From NCBI GenBank assembly GCA_947503525.1, contig CANNEA010000002.1:310001-374000 (forward strand): a stretch of 64,000 nt of DNA, in the 5' to 3' direction. Shown one piece after another: positions 39,958 through 63,998 of the stretch. Positions within the stretch are counted from its first letter, which is position 1. Each line of letters opens with the position of its first letter. Source of the DNA: an uncultured Carboxylicivirga sp. (GTDB lineage: Bacteria > Bacteroidota > Bacteroidia > Bacteroidales > Marinilabiliaceae). The translations under genes and the position numbers were made by a program. The notes beneath the pieces are model-generated. The model worked only from the letters and a program-made list of their open reading frames with translations, searched no databases and was not told the DNA's origin.

Positions 39958-41289
39958 TTATTGCTGCTGTGACTTAGGTAAATAGTACAATACCACACGA
40001 TTATCTTCTACCAGATACTTATTGGCTACGCGCTTAATATCTTCACGTGTTACTGCCAAATATTTATCCAATTCGGTATTGATCATATCCGTGTTTTTGA
40101 AGTAGGTATAGTAACGTGCCAAACTATTAGCTCGTGTAGCTACCTTCATATTACCTTTCACAATATCATTTTCAAATTGATTTTTAAGCTTCTGGAATTC
40201 TCTTTCTGAGATAAGTTCATCCTTTACTTTACTAATTTCAGTGTCAATTGCATCTTCAAGATCTTTACATTCAACACCCATATTAGGCAAGGCATAAGTT
40301 AAAGTTACCGAAGGCTCGTTAAATGGCATTGGAAAACTTCCGGCCTGAATTGCTTTTTGCTGCTCATCAACAAGTGATTTGTATAAACGTGAACTTTGTC
40401 CTTTCGACAATAAAGTTCCTAACATGTCCAAGGCATAGTAATCATCTGTACCCATAGCAGGTGTACGATAAGCTTGCAATATAAGTGGTAACTGAACATT
40501 GTCGTAAATGGTATCTCTGATTTCACCATTCAAAGCAGGTTCAACAATTTTTTCACGCGTTAAATCATGCGTTCCACGTGGAATGTCAGAGAAGTAGCTT
40601 TTTACTAATTCTTTAGTGCTTTCAATTTCGATATCTCCTGCCAATACAAGTACAGCATTGTTAGGTACATAGTACTTATCGTAGAACATTTGAAACTCTT
40701 CATCTTTAGCAGCGCGTATATGATCAGGATCGCCAATGACTACCCAACGATAAGGGTGAACTTTGAACGCACGTTTCATAGTTTCTTGCAAAATTGTTCC
40801 ATATGGTCGGTTATCCATAGTTTGTTTCTTCTCTTCAATAACCACACCTTTTTGCGTTGCAATACCAGTAGAATCAACCTTAGCATGTAACATACGTTCC
40901 GACTCCAACCACAAACCAAGTTCTAATTGGTTAGAAGGCAAAATTTCGTAATAGTAAGTTCTGTCATTTGAAGTATTAGCATTTAAGGTTCCCCCTGCAT
41001 TCTGGACTATTTTAAAAAATTGTCCACGATCGATGTTCTCTGTTCCCTCAAACATTAAATGTTCAAAAAAGTGAGCAAAACCTGTTCGAGTCGGATCTTC
41101 GTGTTTCGAACCCACATCGTACATTACCGATACGGTAACATTTGGTGTAGTTTTGTCTTGATGTAAGATAACGTGTAAGCCATTATCTAAATCAAATTCT
41201 TCGTAACTAATCTTATTGAGTTGGGCACTTATAGAACCCAGGCCGGCTATTAAAAGAGAAAAAGCCAACAATGAAAAACGGTATTTCAT
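39958..41289 (-). CDS. M16-family zinc protease (catalytic subunit)
   Basis: 443 residues with a signal peptide (MKYRFSLLAFSLLIAGLGSISA). The inverted zinc motif His73-Phe-Phe-Glu76-His77 (GFAHFFEHLMFEGTEN) is intact, with the downstream Glu in VIEEKKQT. Two M16 domains: catalytic (about 30-230) and C-terminal (235-440). It should form a periplasmic heterodimer with the zinc-free protein encoded 10 bp downstream and degrade peptides. Pairs of this type are common in Bacteroidota and Proteobacteria. Confidence 0.92.
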   Translation of the reverse strand: MKYRFSLLAFSLLIAGLGSISAQLNKISYEEFDLDNGLHVILHQDKTTPNVTVSVMYDVGSKHEDPTRTGFAHFFEHLMFEGTENIDRGQFFKIVQNAGGTLNANTSNDRTYYYEILPSNQLELGLWLESERMLHAKVDSTGIATQKGVVIEEKKQTMDNRPYGTILQETMKRAFKVHPYRWVVIGDPDHIRAAKDEEFQMFYDKYYVPNNAVLVLAGDIEIESTKELVKSYFSDIPRGTHDLTREKIVEPALNGEIRDTIYDNVQLPLILQAYRTPAMGTDDYYALDMLGTLLSKGQSSRLYKSLVDEQQKAIQAGSFPMPFNEPSVTLTYALPNMGVECKDLEDAIDTEISKVKDELISEREFQKLKNQFENDIVKGNMKVATRANSLARYYTYFKNTDMINTELDKYLAVTREDIKRVANKYLVEDNRVVLYYLPKSQQQ

Positions 41290-58644: not shown

Positions 58645-60459
58645 CTATTTATTTACATTAAACCAAGAATATACTTTCTTACCCTTATCCTTACCAATAA
58701 TGGCGCTCAAATTTTCCAACGTAGCGGCTTTTATTTTGTTCAATGACTTAAAATTAGTAAATAATTCCTCAACCGACTTCTGACCAATTCCTGGAATCTC
58801 ATCCAATTCAGATTTTATAAAATCGATAGATCTCTTTTGACGATGGAAAGTAATTCCAAATCGGTGTGCCTCGTTTCTTAGATATTGAATGATCTTTAAA
58901 GATTCTGAATTCTTATCCAGATATAAAGGGACAGGATCTCCAGGATAAAAAATTTCCTCAAGACGTTTAGCAATACCTATGACTACAATTTTTTCACTCA
59001 ATTCAAGATCACGTAATGCATTTACTGCTGCACCAAGTTGCCCTTTACCTCCATCAATTACTATTAACTGAGGCAAACTTTCACCCTCTTCCTTTAAACG
59101 TTTATACCTACGATAAACAACTTCCTCCATGGATGCAAAGTCATTTGCTCCAATAACTGTTTTAATATTAAAATGTCGATAATCCTTTTTAAAAGGCTTA
59201 GTATTACGAAAAACAACACAAGCAGCAACCGGATGAGTACCTTGAATATTAGAATTATCAAAGCATTCAATATGCCTTGGTAACTCCTTTAATCTTAAAT
59301 CGGCTTGCATAACCTTCAATAATCTATCTTCTCGTGGTTCCTTTTTTATAATAGATTGCTGTTTTAATTTATCCAGTCGGTAATACTTCACATTACGTTC
59401 AGATAGATCTAATAGCTTTTTTCTATCCCCTATTTTTGGCACTACAAACTTTGTATTCCCTAACTCAATATTAAGCTTAAAAGGAACCAATACTTCTCTG
59501 GCTAATAGTTTTAAACGTACATGCATTTCAGTAATTGCTAGAATCAAAATATCAGAAATAGATTCATCCAATCTACGTTTAATTTCCATTGTATGCGATT
59601 GAATAATGGCTCCATTAACTACACGAATAAAATTCACATAGGCCGATTTTTCATCATCAATAATGGTAAATACGTCCATGTTTGACAGTTTAGGATTTAC
59701 CACAGTTGACTTAGATTGATAATTATTTAAAATCTGGATCCGTGTTTTAATATCTTCAGCCTTCTCAAACTCTAATTTTTCTGCATAATTAAGCATTAAA
59801 TCCTTCATATATTTTAGCACAGATGCAATGTTACCCTGAAGAATATTCTTTATGGAATCTATATGTTCAGCATAAAATAGCTCATCATATTCACCTACAC
59901 ATGGAGCTTTACAATTCCCAATATGATACTCCAGGCAAACCTTATATTTCCCTTCCTTAATCTTGTTTTGAGATAGATTTAACTTACATGTTCGGAGAGG
60001 AAATAACTGTTTAAATAGATCAAGCAAAGTACGAACCATTCCAATTGATGTATATGGTCCATAATAATTACTTCCATCCCTTATGTAGGTACGAGATTGA
60101 AATACCCTGGGAAAAGCTTCGTTCTTAACAACTATCCACGGAAATGACTTATCATCCTTAAGTAGGATATTATATCGAGGCTGATACATCTTGATTAAAT
60201 TATTCTCCAAAAGCAAAGCATCCTCTTCCGTATCTACCACCAAATGCTTTATATCCGCAATTCTTCGAACTAAAATTCGAGTTTTACCATTATCATGACT
60301 TTTGGTAAAATAGGAAGCCACCCGTTTTTTAAGATCCTTTGCTTTACCAATATATATAACAACACCATCTTCATTAAAATATTGATAAACCCCAGGTGAA
60401 GATGGCAAAGCTTGCACCTTACTCTTTAGAAAATCCTCTCTTAATTTTTCCTTACTCAT
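58645..60459 (-). CDS. uvrC: Excinuclease ABC subunit C
   Basis: 604 residues. The GIY-YIG nuclease domain is at the front (SSPGVYQYFNEDGVVIYIGKAKDLKKRV), the UvrB-binding helix pair near 205-240 (LEFEKAEDIKTRIQIL), the RNase H-like second nuclease at about 385-545 (IECFDNSNIQGTHPVAACVVF; IVIDGGKGQL), and tandem HhH motifs at the end (IPGIGQKSVEELF). It makes both incisions of nucleotide excision repair. Its start overlaps the ade stop by 8 bp. Confidence 0.97.
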   Translation of the reverse strand: MSKEKLREDFLKSKVQALPSSPGVYQYFNEDGVVIYIGKAKDLKKRVASYFTKSHDNGKTRILVRRIADIKHLVVDTEEDALLLENNLIKMYQPRYNILLKDDKSFPWIVVKNEAFPRVFQSRTYIRDGSNYYGPYTSIGMVRTLLDLFKQLFPLRTCKLNLSQNKIKEGKYKVCLEYHIGNCKAPCVGEYDELFYAEHIDSIKNILQGNIASVLKYMKDLMLNYAEKLEFEKAEDIKTRIQILNNYQSKSTVVNPKLSNMDVFTIIDDEKSAYVNFIRVVNGAIIQSHTMEIKRRLDESISDILILAITEMHVRLKLLAREVLVPFKLNIELGNTKFVVPKIGDRKKLLDLSERNVKYYRLDKLKQQSIIKKEPREDRLLKVMQADLRLKELPRHIECFDNSNIQGTHPVAACVVFRNTKPFKKDYRHFNIKTVIGANDFASMEEVVYRRYKRLKEEGESLPQLIVIDGGKGQLGAAVNALRDLELSEKIVVIGIAKRLEEIFYPGDPVPLYLDKNSESLKIIQYLRNEAHRFGITFHRQKRSIDFIKSELDEIPGIGQKSVEELFTNFKSLNKIKAATLENLSAIIGKDKGKKVYSWFNVNK

Positions 60460-62089
60460 CTACTATAAAAAGGTCGGTAAAGGTAAATGTTGATACATCA
60501 AATAATCCCCTATTTCCTATCTTTAATTGTGGTATAACCAATAAAGACATAAACGCTAAAGTCATGAATGGCGCTTTCAAATCTACCCCTAATTTAGCAA
60601 CGAATTCATTTAATTGAGTATATCGAGTTGCAATATCATCCCCCGATTGATCAGACATAATACCAGCGATTGGTAAAGGTAAAATTAATAATTCATCAGA
60701 ATCACAAGTAGCGATACCACCTTTTTCTGTTATAATGGAATTAATCACTTTAACCAAGGATTCATCATCACAACCAATCGCAACAATATTGTGACTATCA
60801 TGAGCCACCGAACTTGCAATTGCCCCACTATTTAATTTGAAATTCCGTATAAATCCGATGCTAGGTTTAGATTTTACATATCTATTTACGACAACAATTT
60901 TTAAAATATCTTTATCTAAATCGGATACTATTTCTTCATCCTTTTTGTAACTACTCTCCCAAATATATTGACCAGTTAATAATTCACCGTCATCAGCCTC
61001 TATCACTCTTACTTTACAATCATCAACCGGCGCGACTATTTTAAGATCATTAGCCTGCAATAAAGAACAATTAAAATTATTGACTTGAGAAATTTCCTCT
61101 AATTTAAACAAGGTTTTATTCTCTCGTACTACTTCCTTACCATCAATAAAAGTTTGAATCACATTAAAATTATCGAGAGAATCCACTACTATAAAATCAG
61201 CTGGATCACCTTTTCTAAGTAATCCAATAGGAAGATCATAGTGCATCACAGGATTTAAAACCGCAGCTTTATACATTTGAAAAATTGAATATCCCTTCTC
61301 TAGACCTAGTCTTATAATCCGATCAATATGACCCTTATTTCTGATTAAATCAGGATGACTATCATCCGTACATACCATAACATTATCAGGATGGCTTGCA
61401 ATTAAAGAATGAAGTGACTCAAAATTTCGCGCTGCACTTCCTTCCCTGATTTGAATCATCATGCCAAGTTTAATTTTTTGCAAGGCTTCATCTAAAGTAG
61501 AACACTCATGATCCGTTGAAATACCTCCTTGAACATACTTTATTAAATCATCTCCAAGCAAACCGGGTGCATGACCATCTATTGGCTTTTTATATTTTTT
61601 AGCAATGTCAAGTTTAGATTTCACGACTGAATCACCATAAATAACACCCGGATAATTCATCATTTCAGCCAAAAATTTAGCCCCATTCTTAAATAAACTC
61701 TCAACATCTTCCACATTAATAACCCCGCCTGAAGTTTCAAAATCAGTTGCAGGTACACATGAAGGAACGCCAAAGAAACATTTCAAAGGTACCTTTTCCG
61801 CATCCTTCATCATATATTCCACACCTTCCTTACCAAGAATATTTGCAATTTCATGCGGATCAGAAACCACTGCAACTGTTCCACGTGGAACAACCATGGC
61901 TGCAAATCGAGAAGGCACCATCATTGAACTCTCTATATGAACATGAGCATCAACTAAACCAGGTAGAATGAAATTATTATAGCCTAAATCGGTTCTTTCA
62001 ATTTCTTGGATACAACCATTCTCAATTATAATATTAGCACCATAAATTTCTTGACTATGCACATCTACGAGATTACCAGAAACAATCAT
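60452..62089 (-). CDS. ade: Adenine deaminase
   Basis: 545 residues, amidohydrolase superfamily. Metal ligands are in ILPGLVDAHVHIESSMM; VAVVSDPHEIANILGKEGVEYMM, DGHAPGL and VCTDDSHPDLI are the following blocks, and the C-terminal Ade domain (from about 380) contains VAHDSHNIVAIGCDD. It converts adenine to hypoxanthine. Part of mnmG-ade-uvrC; related Bacteroidota often have apt at this position. The coding sequence contains a perfect parS-like palindrome at its Pro-Arg-Gly-Thr codons. Confidence 0.95.
   Translation of the reverse strand: MIVSGNLVDVHSQEIYGANIIIENGCIQEIERTDLGYNNFILPGLVDAHVHIESSMMVPSRFAAMVVPRGTVAVVSDPHEIANILGKEGVEYMMKDAEKVPLKCFFGVPSCVPATDFETSGGVINVEDVESLFKNGAKFLAEMMNYPGVIYGDSVVKSKLDIAKKYKKPIDGHAPGLLGDDLIKYVQGGISTDHECSTLDEALQKIKLGMMIQIREGSAARNFESLHSLIASHPDNVMVCTDDSHPDLIRNKGHIDRIIRLGLEKGYSIFQMYKAAVLNPVMHYDLPIGLLRKGDPADFIVVDSLDNFNVIQTFIDGKEVVRENKTLFKLEEISQVNNFNCSLLQANDLKIVAPVDDCKVRVIEADDGELLTGQYIWESSYKKDEEIVSDLDKDILKIVVVNRYVKSKPSIGFIRNFKLNSGAIASSVAHDSHNIVAIGCDDESLVKVINSIITEKGGIATCDSDELLILPLPIAGIMSDQSGDDIATRYTQLNEFVAKLGVDLKAPFMTLAFMSLLVIPQLKIGNRGLFDVSTFTFTDLFIVDE
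61877..61892. promoter_or_regulatory. parS-like ParB-binding site (inside ade)
   Basis: TGTTCCACGTGGAACA is a perfect 16-bp palindrome and fits the chromosomal parS consensus (TGTTnCACGTGnAACA). It lies within the ade coding region over codons for Val-Pro-Arg-Gly-Thr, so part of it is constrained by protein sequence. Confidence 0.75.
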
Positions 62090-62104
62090 AGAAATAAAAA
62101 TTAG

Positions 62105-62120
62105 TGTTCCACGTGGAACG
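62105..62120. promoter_or_regulatory. parS-like ParB-binding site (between mnmG and ade)
   Basis: TGTTCCACGTGGAACG keeps the 14-bp palindromic core GTTCCACGTGGAAC with one mismatch at the outermost base. It fills the non-coding gap right after the mnmG stop, so coding constraint cannot explain it. 228 bp from the other site. Confidence 0.82.
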
Positions 62121-63998
62121 TTAGCGACCCATTAAAACCAAAAGTACATTAATATCACTTGGAGAAACACCAGAAATTCGACTAGCTTGACCAATAGTTT
62201 CCGGATCAATTTTAGCCAACTTCTGACGACCTTCGGTTGAAATTGACTTTAAAGTTGAATAATCGAAACGGTTTTTAATCTTTACACTTTCAAGTCTCTT
62301 AAACTTTTCAGCGAGCAATTTTTCTCGATTGATATATCCTTCGTATTTAATGGCCACCTCAACTGATTCAATAATTTCATCATATCGTTCAGAAGGTAAC
62401 TTATCCACTTCAGTTTTTAGATCCTTAAAATTATCTATTAAATCACGTAGATTCAATTGCGGACGTGTTAAAAGATCCATAAGTTTCACGCCCTGTTTTA
62501 AAGGTGTGGTTCCTTTTGAAAGTAACCAATCATTAGCAAACTTCATTTTAACACTATATGTCTTGATGAAATTTATCAATTGCTCCTTAAGAACATTCTT
62601 TTGTTCCAAATATTCTACTCTCTCCTTTGACGCCAAACCAAGCTTATAACTTTTCAAAGTTAAACGATTATCTGCATCGTCCTGTCGCAATAAAATACGA
62701 TACTCAGCTCTAGAGGTAAACATCCTATAAGGTTCGTCAACACCTTTAGTAACTAAATCATCAATCAATACTCCAATATAAGCTTCATCTCTACTAAGCA
62801 CGACATCCTTTAAATTATTTATTTTTTGATGAGCATTTATACCAGCCATCAAACCTTGAGCAGCCGCTTCTTCGTAACCGGTAGTACCATTTATTTGACC
62901 AGCAAAAAACAGGTTTGTTATATATTTTGTTTCCAAAGTATGGAATAACTGAGTAGGTTCAAAAAAATCGTACTCTATTGCATAACCCGGCCTGAACACT
63001 TTGACTTGTTCTAAACCAGGAACTTTTTCAAGTGCAGAAATTTGAACATTTAGTGGAAGTGAAGAACTAAAACCATTTAAATAATATTCAATAGTATCTT
63101 CACCTTCAGGCTCCAAAAATAATTGATGACGGTCCTTATCCGCGAAAGTGACAATCTTTGTTTCAATACTTGGACAATATCTAGGACCTAAACTTTGAAT
63201 TGTACCATTATACATTGGGGATTCCTGAAGACCTTCTTCTAACTTAGTATGCACAGTTGGATTAGTATACGTAACATAACAACTTCTCTGCTTTAACTTT
63301 TTATTCGATCCAGGAAGATAACTAAATCGATAATTTGTGTCCTCTCCTTTTTGCTCCTCCAATTTGCTAAAATCTATACTTCTTTCGTCAATTCTGACAG
63401 GAGTACCCGTTTTCATTCGTCCAACCTTAAAACCAGCAGAAAATAGCTTTTCGGACAGTCCTTTCGAGCTAGGTTCAGAAACTCTACCTCCTTCTAACTG
63501 TACTGATCCTATGTGCATTAGACCGTTTAAAAACGTTCCTGTCGTTAATATCACAGCCTTAGCCTTAAACTCTACATTATTCTTTGTTCTAACGCCCTTA
63601 ATTATGTTATCTACAATAATAAAATCAATAACCGTGTCTTGCCAGAAAAAAACGTTAGAATTTTGTTCTAGTTGTTTTCTCCATTCCGTTGAAAAAACCA
63701 TTCGGTCACATTGAGCCCTTGGACTCCACATCGCAGGTCCTTTAGACCTATTTAACATACGAAATTGTATAGAACTCTTATCAGTAATTATACCCATATA
63801 ACCACCCATCGCATCTATCTCCCGAACAATTTGACCTTTGGCAATTCCACCGACAGCAGGATTACATGACATTTGTGCAAAACGCGACATATCCATAGTA
63901 ATAAGTAACACCCTACTACCCAAATTTGCAGCTGCTGCTGCAGCCTCGCATCCAGCATGACCGCCCCCAACGACAATTACATCGTAATCAAAATCCAT
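62121..63998 (-). CDS. mnmG: tRNA uridine-5-carboxymethylaminomethyl modification enzyme
   Basis: 625 residues, complete, starting 3 bp from the right window edge. The FAD-binding N-terminus is YDVIVVGGGHAGCEAAAAAANLG; SCNPAVGGIAKGQIVREIDAMGG, GRMKTGTPVRID and FAGQINGTTGYEEAAAQGL are GidA/MnmG blocks, followed by the C-terminal helical domain (about 555-625; RISGVSPSDINVLLV). With MnmE it adds the cmnm5 group at wobble U34. mnmG (gidA) is often close to the chromosome origin, in line with the neighbouring parS sites. Confidence 0.97.
   Translation of the reverse strand: MDFDYDVIVVGGGHAGCEAAAAAANLGSRVLLITMDMSRFAQMSCNPAVGGIAKGQIVREIDAMGGYMGIITDKSSIQFRMLNRSKGPAMWSPRAQCDRMVFSTEWRKQLEQNSNVFFWQDTVIDFIIVDNIIKGVRTKNNVEFKAKAVILTTGTFLNGLMHIGSVQLEGGRVSEPSSKGLSEKLFSAGFKVGRMKTGTPVRIDERSIDFSKLEEQKGEDTNYRFSYLPGSNKKLKQRSCYVTYTNPTVHTKLEEGLQESPMYNGTIQSLGPRYCPSIETKIVTFADKDRHQLFLEPEGEDTIEYYLNGFSSSLPLNVQISALEKVPGLEQVKVFRPGYAIEYDFFEPTQLFHTLETKYITNLFFAGQINGTTGYEEAAAQGLMAGINAHQKINNLKDVVLSRDEAYIGVLIDDLVTKGVDEPYRMFTSRAEYRILLRQDDADNRLTLKSYKLGLASKERVEYLEQKNVLKEQLINFIKTYSVKMKFANDWLLSKGTTPLKQGVKLMDLLTRPQLNLRDLIDNFKDLKTEVDKLPSERYDEIIESVEVAIKYEGYINREKLLAEKFKRLESVKIKNRFDYSTLKSISTEGRQKLAKIDPETIGQASRISGVSPSDINVLLVLMGR

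Follow-up and report, generated by a model that had tools for sequence, protein, structure and literature searches.

Putative parS palindromes beside mnmG, near a probable replication origin, in an uncultured Carboxylicivirga sp.

ParB proteins load as clamps on DNA, and in the usual ParABS layout the parAB genes are closer to parS than in the genomes described below. ParB binding, its spreading and the movement driven by ParA are known for the family (PMC7333895, in the accessible part of its text) and are extended here to the bacterium under study. In ParB, conservation of R173 and G201 marks parS binding; Noc has Q and R at these positions and K at 179 and 184 (PMC7383237, accessible part). 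In 12 gut bacteria, including two Bacteroidetes, the ori was placed by parS clusters and GC skew, with support from read coverage; the parS consensus was TGTTTCACGTGAAACA with 2 mismatches allowed, the ori need not coincide with dnaA, and in the two Bacteroidetes no known condensin was found (PMC10197239, for the portion of the article available). In Bacteroidetes oriC is commonly far from dnaA (PMC4755523, in its available portion).

Here we analyse a window, i.e. the whole stretch of 64,000 nucleotides, that corresponds to G000:C2:310001-374000 of a 6,556,515-bp genome in 39 contigs; coordinates preceded by C2 refer to the contig and bare ones to the window. The locus resembles the chromosomal ParABS parS treated in the accessible text of PMC7333895 in its 16-bp palindromes with a CACGTG core, in their few copies clustered near the probable origin, in a single ParB with R and G and in a ParA-like partner. 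As in the gut-bacterial clusters (PMC10197239, available part), the sites group at the probable ori, and the ori is not always at dnaA; the differences are that other species are concerned and that sites, neighbours and box array are mapped here across relatives, without Hi-C. With Noc and its NBS sites the locus shares a ParB-like protein and a similar palindrome, but its ParB carries R and G at the positions of the Q and R of Noc, and the exact sites are clustered. It departs from the usual ParABS in that parAB lies 220-294 kb from the nearest putative parS (four of four genomes with both listed on one contig) and that one parS abuts the mnmG stop.

Palindromes in the window and in the genome

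The features of the window are the following:

61877..61892: TGTTCCACGTGGAACA, a palindrome of parS type spanning codons Val66 to Thr71 of ade
62105..62120: TGTTCCACGTGGAACG, a palindrome of parS type in the mnmG-ade gap, directly against the stop codon of mnmG
62121..63998, minus strand: mnmG (gidA), NCBIfam TIGR00136, 815.7 bits against a cut-off of 524.85; conserved neighbour of parS
60452..62089, minus strand: ade (adenine deaminase), NCBIfam TIGR01178, 598 bits against a cut-off of 472.5; one site lies within its CDS
40571..40584: one-mismatch copy GTTCCACGTGGAAT, inside a gene resembling an M16 peptidase; probably chance

The preliminary description of this DNA had proposed a parS cluster at ade-mnmG, made of two palindromes that share a 14-mer, one of them intergenic. 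Both palindromes are confirmed, with starts 228 bp apart, and the 62105 copy does follow the mnmG stop and precede the ade start. The exact 14-mer, GTTCCACGTGGAAC, is not scattered over the 6.56 Mb genome: it has two copies, both in the window (61877 and 62105), and a third parS-type palindrome, GTTTCACGTGAAAC, is found at C2:385019, about 13 kb from the pair and 11 kb past the window end. The pair is real, and the cluster reaches as far as this third site, which stands beside the likelier origin and, lying past the window end, was out of sight of the preliminary description.

All three are 16-bp palindromes with a CACGTG core that fit the parS consensus, GTTCCACGTGGAAC twice and GTTTCACGTGAAAC once; measured against TGTTTCACGTGAAACA, the 61877 copy has two mismatches, the C2:385019 site one and the 62105 copy three, including its last base. 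The pattern GTTYCACGTGRAAC was observed 3 times within 13.2 kb, a count that covers the first 800 kb of C2, versus 0.04-0.06 expected per genome, and the wider GTTNCACGTGNAAC also gives 3 in the whole genome. As is typical of chromosomal parS, the copies are few and clustered (3 sites in 6.56 Mb).

When mismatches are allowed, the window holds 5 matches to the 14-mer at up to 3 mismatches, versus a mean of 0.89 in 100 shuffles. Genome-wide, the reversed control of the 14-mer gave 1 match at up to one mismatch; eight places have 2 mismatches, one of which is the perfect palindrome GTTTCACGTGAAAC, the other seven lying elsewhere. With up to 3 mismatches allowed, 146 places in the genome match, versus 162 for the reversed control, so the weak sites are background and form no halo around the strong ones.

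The single genome copy of the 14-mer with one mismatch, at 40571 of the window, was absent from the preliminary description. It falls in a gene that resembles an M16 peptidase. Among the stretches of 10 relatives that were searched, four contained this gene and 6 did not, and all four orthologues lack the site at up to 2 mismatches; a fourth parS at 40571 was rejected, and this copy is probably due to chance.

ParB, its partner and the proposed centromere

One ParB_N protein is encoded in the genome (C2:666544-667419, 121.6 bits), which also scores 174 bits with TIGR00180 against a cut-off of 58.45; the ParB homologue expected from the preliminary description thus exists, in one copy and adjoining a ParA-like ORF. 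In a gapless alignment with Noc, the positions equivalent to Caulobacter 173/179/184/201 are occupied by R, Y, K and G in this ParB and by Q, K, K and R in Noc. The ParA-like ORF, of 259 aa, is just upstream of parB; among the 25 matches listed for it, all NCBIfam ParA-family models are below cut-off, and its name therefore rests on context. In relatives, ParB was found in 59 of 60 genomes, one each; G044 has a fragment only, and the genome in which none was found is 61% complete. The distance from parB to the nearest parS-type site is 281 kb in the own genome, 294 kb in G002, 220 kb in G019 and 264 kb in G021, and in these four genomes, which have both on one contig, parB is always on the side of the third site.

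As regards condensin, no SMC of the own genome is over cut-off (best 32.8 versus 567.35 bits), and neither ScpA nor ScpB has a match there. ParB and parS-type sites are thus present in a genome without recognised Smc-ScpAB, in agreement with the finding on two other Bacteroidetes (PMC10197239, accessible part).

From sequence evidence we consider it highly probable that the two palindromes are parS sites of the single chromosomal ParABS system, to which ParB should bind, within about 13 kb of the likely origin. Together with C2:385019 they would very probably constitute the chromosomal ParABS centromere, an element of known kind, mapped here in a little-studied group. ParB dimers would load on the parS sites as CTP-dependent clamps and, once loaded, would slide onto neighbouring DNA (mnmG, ade and beyond); ParA would then move the ParB complex, so that newly copied origin regions separate first.

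Conservation in relatives and linkage to mnmG

Within the genus, GTTNCACGTGNAAC matches 3 or 4 times in every one of the 13 relatives, and the reversed control gives 0 or 1 in each. In 10 genomes and G002 the spacing of the close pair is 219 to 228 bp, and the third site is 12.9 to 14.3 kb from the pair on the same contig, the exception being G008, where it is on another contig; G004 enters the match count but is without listed positions, and those of G013 are listed in part. In G009 and G011 the fourth GTTNCACGTGNAAC match is located on a different contig and agrees with the N-pattern only. At larger scale, GTTNCACGTGNAAC is present in 53 of 60 relatives, the exact site being absent in 7, and in the class GTTYCACGTGRAAC occurs in 264 of 296 genomes, 32 being without an exact site and nine rows having a match in the reversed control.

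Loci were also collected by a search with the ade protein, whose best named matches are Carboxylicivirga and other Marinilabiliaceae (Bacteroidales); they belong in part to the same genomes as the G-numbered relatives (L090 and G003, for instance, have contigs of equal length) and are not an independent set. Conservation of the intergenic site proved favourable in these 80 loci: a parS-type site occurs in 35 of the 37 that show mnmG versus one of the 43 without visible mnmG, several of which come from other phyla or are on short contigs, so that the comparison indicates linkage and is no clean experiment. The only site-bearing locus of the 43 is L100, whose contig starts at ade. The start of parS has identical spacing after mnmG in 27 of the 35 loci, and the 14-mer of the intergenic site is kept while the downstream flanks vary. 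Two loci with mnmG, L142 and L158, have no exact parS. L158 carries one-mismatch copies at 2305 and 4213, on both sides of mnmG, perhaps drifted parS.

The same neighbourhood is found farther away. Thirty class loci with sequence, from six families and not a random draw, were inspected over roughly 1.5 kb on each side: mnmG is beside the parS-type site in 28, with the site past its 3' end in 24 (21 within 50 bp), on its 5' side in 3 and inside the gene in 1. Of 14 loci representing as many further families in the order, inspected over the same span, 12 have mnmG, with parS on the 3' side in 10 (nine within 50 bp) and on the 5' side in 2. From the positions at class and order level, parS beside mnmG is the rule, and placement at the stop codon is its commonest form. 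Among the matches listed in the open-licence literature, as far as titles and the beginnings of abstracts tell, there is no report of mnmG-linked parS; the parS survey of Livny et al. 2007 may already list such sites.

These data bear on the possibility that the palindromes are an operator for a transcription factor controlling ade. Some regulators do use CACGTG cores, and the intergenic copy is indeed upstream of ade with the other copy early in the gene; however, the motif tracks mnmG and not ade, as the single occurrence among ade loci without visible mnmG indicates, and ade appears in none of the 30 class stretches. We judge an operator of ade very improbable.

An RNA stem after mnmG, such as an intrinsic terminator, with the ade copy as a codon coincidence, is very improbable as well. 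The intergenic palindrome can be read as GTTCC-ACGT-GGAAC followed by ACTAATTTTT, which obtains a weak terminator score on the mnmG strand, and a T-tail is present in 12 of 36 rows, but the other 24 have none. Moreover, in 9 of the 36 the sequence is GTTCCACGTGAAAC, with which one pair of the stem is lost but the fit to parS kept. The letters of the putative loop are invariant in these rows, although partly by construction, because rows were selected by the motif. A terminator would also leave unexplained the recurrence of the palindrome in ade, at conserved synonymous positions, and before hemW.

Codon use in ade argues likewise for a DNA site. In 11 genus sequences, 118 columns hold an unvarying residue whose codons are 4- or 6-fold degenerate. 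One codon is used throughout in 5 of these columns; within VPRGT of the site this holds for the proline only, since the ade site is lost in L099 (its intergenic site is kept). Without L099, an exclusion chosen after seeing its row, 9 of 127 columns in the remaining 10 sequences have one codon. The site contributes five of these, in the unbroken row VVPRG, and nowhere else in ade do 3 or more identical degenerate codons follow one another; the VVPRG codons are thus identical in 10 of the 11 sequences. To judge from these codons, the ade site is conserved as DNA, beyond the protein.

The probable origin and a candidate composite site

GC skew and coding bias were sampled coarsely in two relatives, with twenty 20-kb samples each of G021 (4.11 Mb contig) and G002 (6.27 Mb, one contig). 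In G021 the GC skew is negative in the sample at 2.05 Mb and positive in that at 2.255 Mb; in G002 the corresponding change falls between the samples at 1.26 and 1.365 Mb. The coding bias of G021 switches sign there too, and that of G002 is mixed, already positive at 1.26 Mb, with no sharp flip. Fine skew was computed in 5-kb steps over 200 kb (G021) and 260 kb (G002), so that the minima are local to those spans. In G021 the cumulative curve is lowest at 2,110 kb and dips almost as low at 2,140 kb, the sites being at 2,096, 2,097 and 2,112 kb; in G002 its lowest point is at 1,365 kb, the sites being at 1,363 and 1,376 kb. Both local minima are about 2 kb from the third site. The proximity to the origin that is typical of chromosomal parS is thus indicated by proxy, through the sign change of the skew and the local minima of these two genomes.

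The own contig is less clear. Its cumulative skew has a minimum at 385 kb within 300-480 kb and a slightly lower one near 610 kb over 800 kb; the position by GC skew suggested in the preliminary description is hence favourable in G021 and G002, and the own contig alone gives two near-equal lows, 385 kb and about 610 kb. In the stretches C2:200001-240000 and 480001-600000 both GC skew and coding bias run the other way, as local inversions or insertions would leave them. The gene dnaA is on another contig than parS in the own genome, and in G002, taking the chromosome as circular, it is 2.5 Mb from parS.

It might be supposed that the sites are true ParB sites marking some domain other than the origin. 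The skew mosaic of the own contig and the location of parAB and dnaA elsewhere would suit such a view, which nevertheless we judge very unlikely, about as much so as the terminator: in the complete or near-complete chromosomes of G021 and G002 the cluster is where the sampled skew switches sign, and the local minimum is about 2 kb from the third site. It is further disfavoured because parS clusters with GC skew are the means by which the ori was located in PMC10197239 (available portion). An origin-proximal parS cluster, as originally proposed, is instead supported by the clustering of the sites, the single ParB, the conservation and the skew of two relatives, all of which are properties read from genomes.

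Two elements near the third site may indicate the origin more precisely:

C2:383053-383510 (L058 11054-11511): nadA-rpiB gap, 22% GC, five relaxed DnaA boxes
C2:384948-385032 (L058 12949-13033): same-strand DnaA-box-like array, beside the third parS, before hemW

The nadA-rpiB gap measures 457 to 464 bp in 9 of the 10 genus members read and gave no Rfam family at the gathering threshold. Its five TTWTNMACA, a relaxed box motif picked after viewing the alignment of this gap, are the most among 83 ORF-free gaps of at least 300 bp in 800 kb; shuffles of the gap have a mean of 0.58, and 0 of 1000 reach five. The boxes of the array start 71, 50 and 28 bp before the third parS, and nowhere else in 800 kb do three relaxed boxes on one strand fall within 60 bp. 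In further family members (G019, G025 and G027) the relaxed motif picked out the array beside the third parS. Of 16 genomes with the third site read, the own included and G016 left out, 14 have the array at threshold, and G002 and G012 have two boxes in the span; 1.6 Mb of relatives' stretches (L213-L292, partly overlapping) hold no other such box cluster. The boxes are TTATNAACA-like, unlike the E. coli type, and, with a motif chosen after alignment, they are putative DnaA boxes. Canonical DnaA boxes (TTATCCACA, one mismatch) form no informative cluster near parS, and the 1.5 kb before the dnaA match has one relaxed box (L057 1014). We propose the array beside the third parS as a marker of the likely origin, i.e. 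as a candidate oriC.

A broader model, which we advance tentatively and think slightly more apt to fail than to hold, is that of a composite origin-centromere in the family. It would consist of the TTATNAACA same-strand array ending about 20 bp from parS, the AT-rich, box-rich nadA-rpiB gap 1.5 kb away, and, roughly 13 kb off, more parS in ade and at the mnmG stop; direct competition or cooperation between DnaA and ParB might take place on it, and segregation would proceed without Smc-ScpAB, with parAB and dnaA unlinked.

Beyond the known kind, the informative points are the mnmG address of parS, the remoteness of parAB, a ParB-parS system in a genome with no recognised Smc-ScpAB, and the composite of parS and box array. 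The mapping provides a putative centromere and a probable origin for a group in which the position of dnaA is no guide to the origin. In loci of many Bacteroidia families the parS-type site adjoins mnmG, mostly at its 3' end, with parAB elsewhere where visible. Two matters become testable: how ParB organises a Bacteroidota chromosome when no condensin is recognised, and whether a single composite site serves both DnaA and ParB.

Two minor observations concern other sequences. GCTTCACGTGAAAC, one mismatch from parS, is found at G002:C1:1209350, 154 kb from the cluster, and at G019:C1:694989, 66 kb from it, and these may be outlying sites. GTGCCACCTGGAAT has five copies at G000:C1:436848-438260, the first four 406 bp apart, which probably belong to a long tandem repeat.
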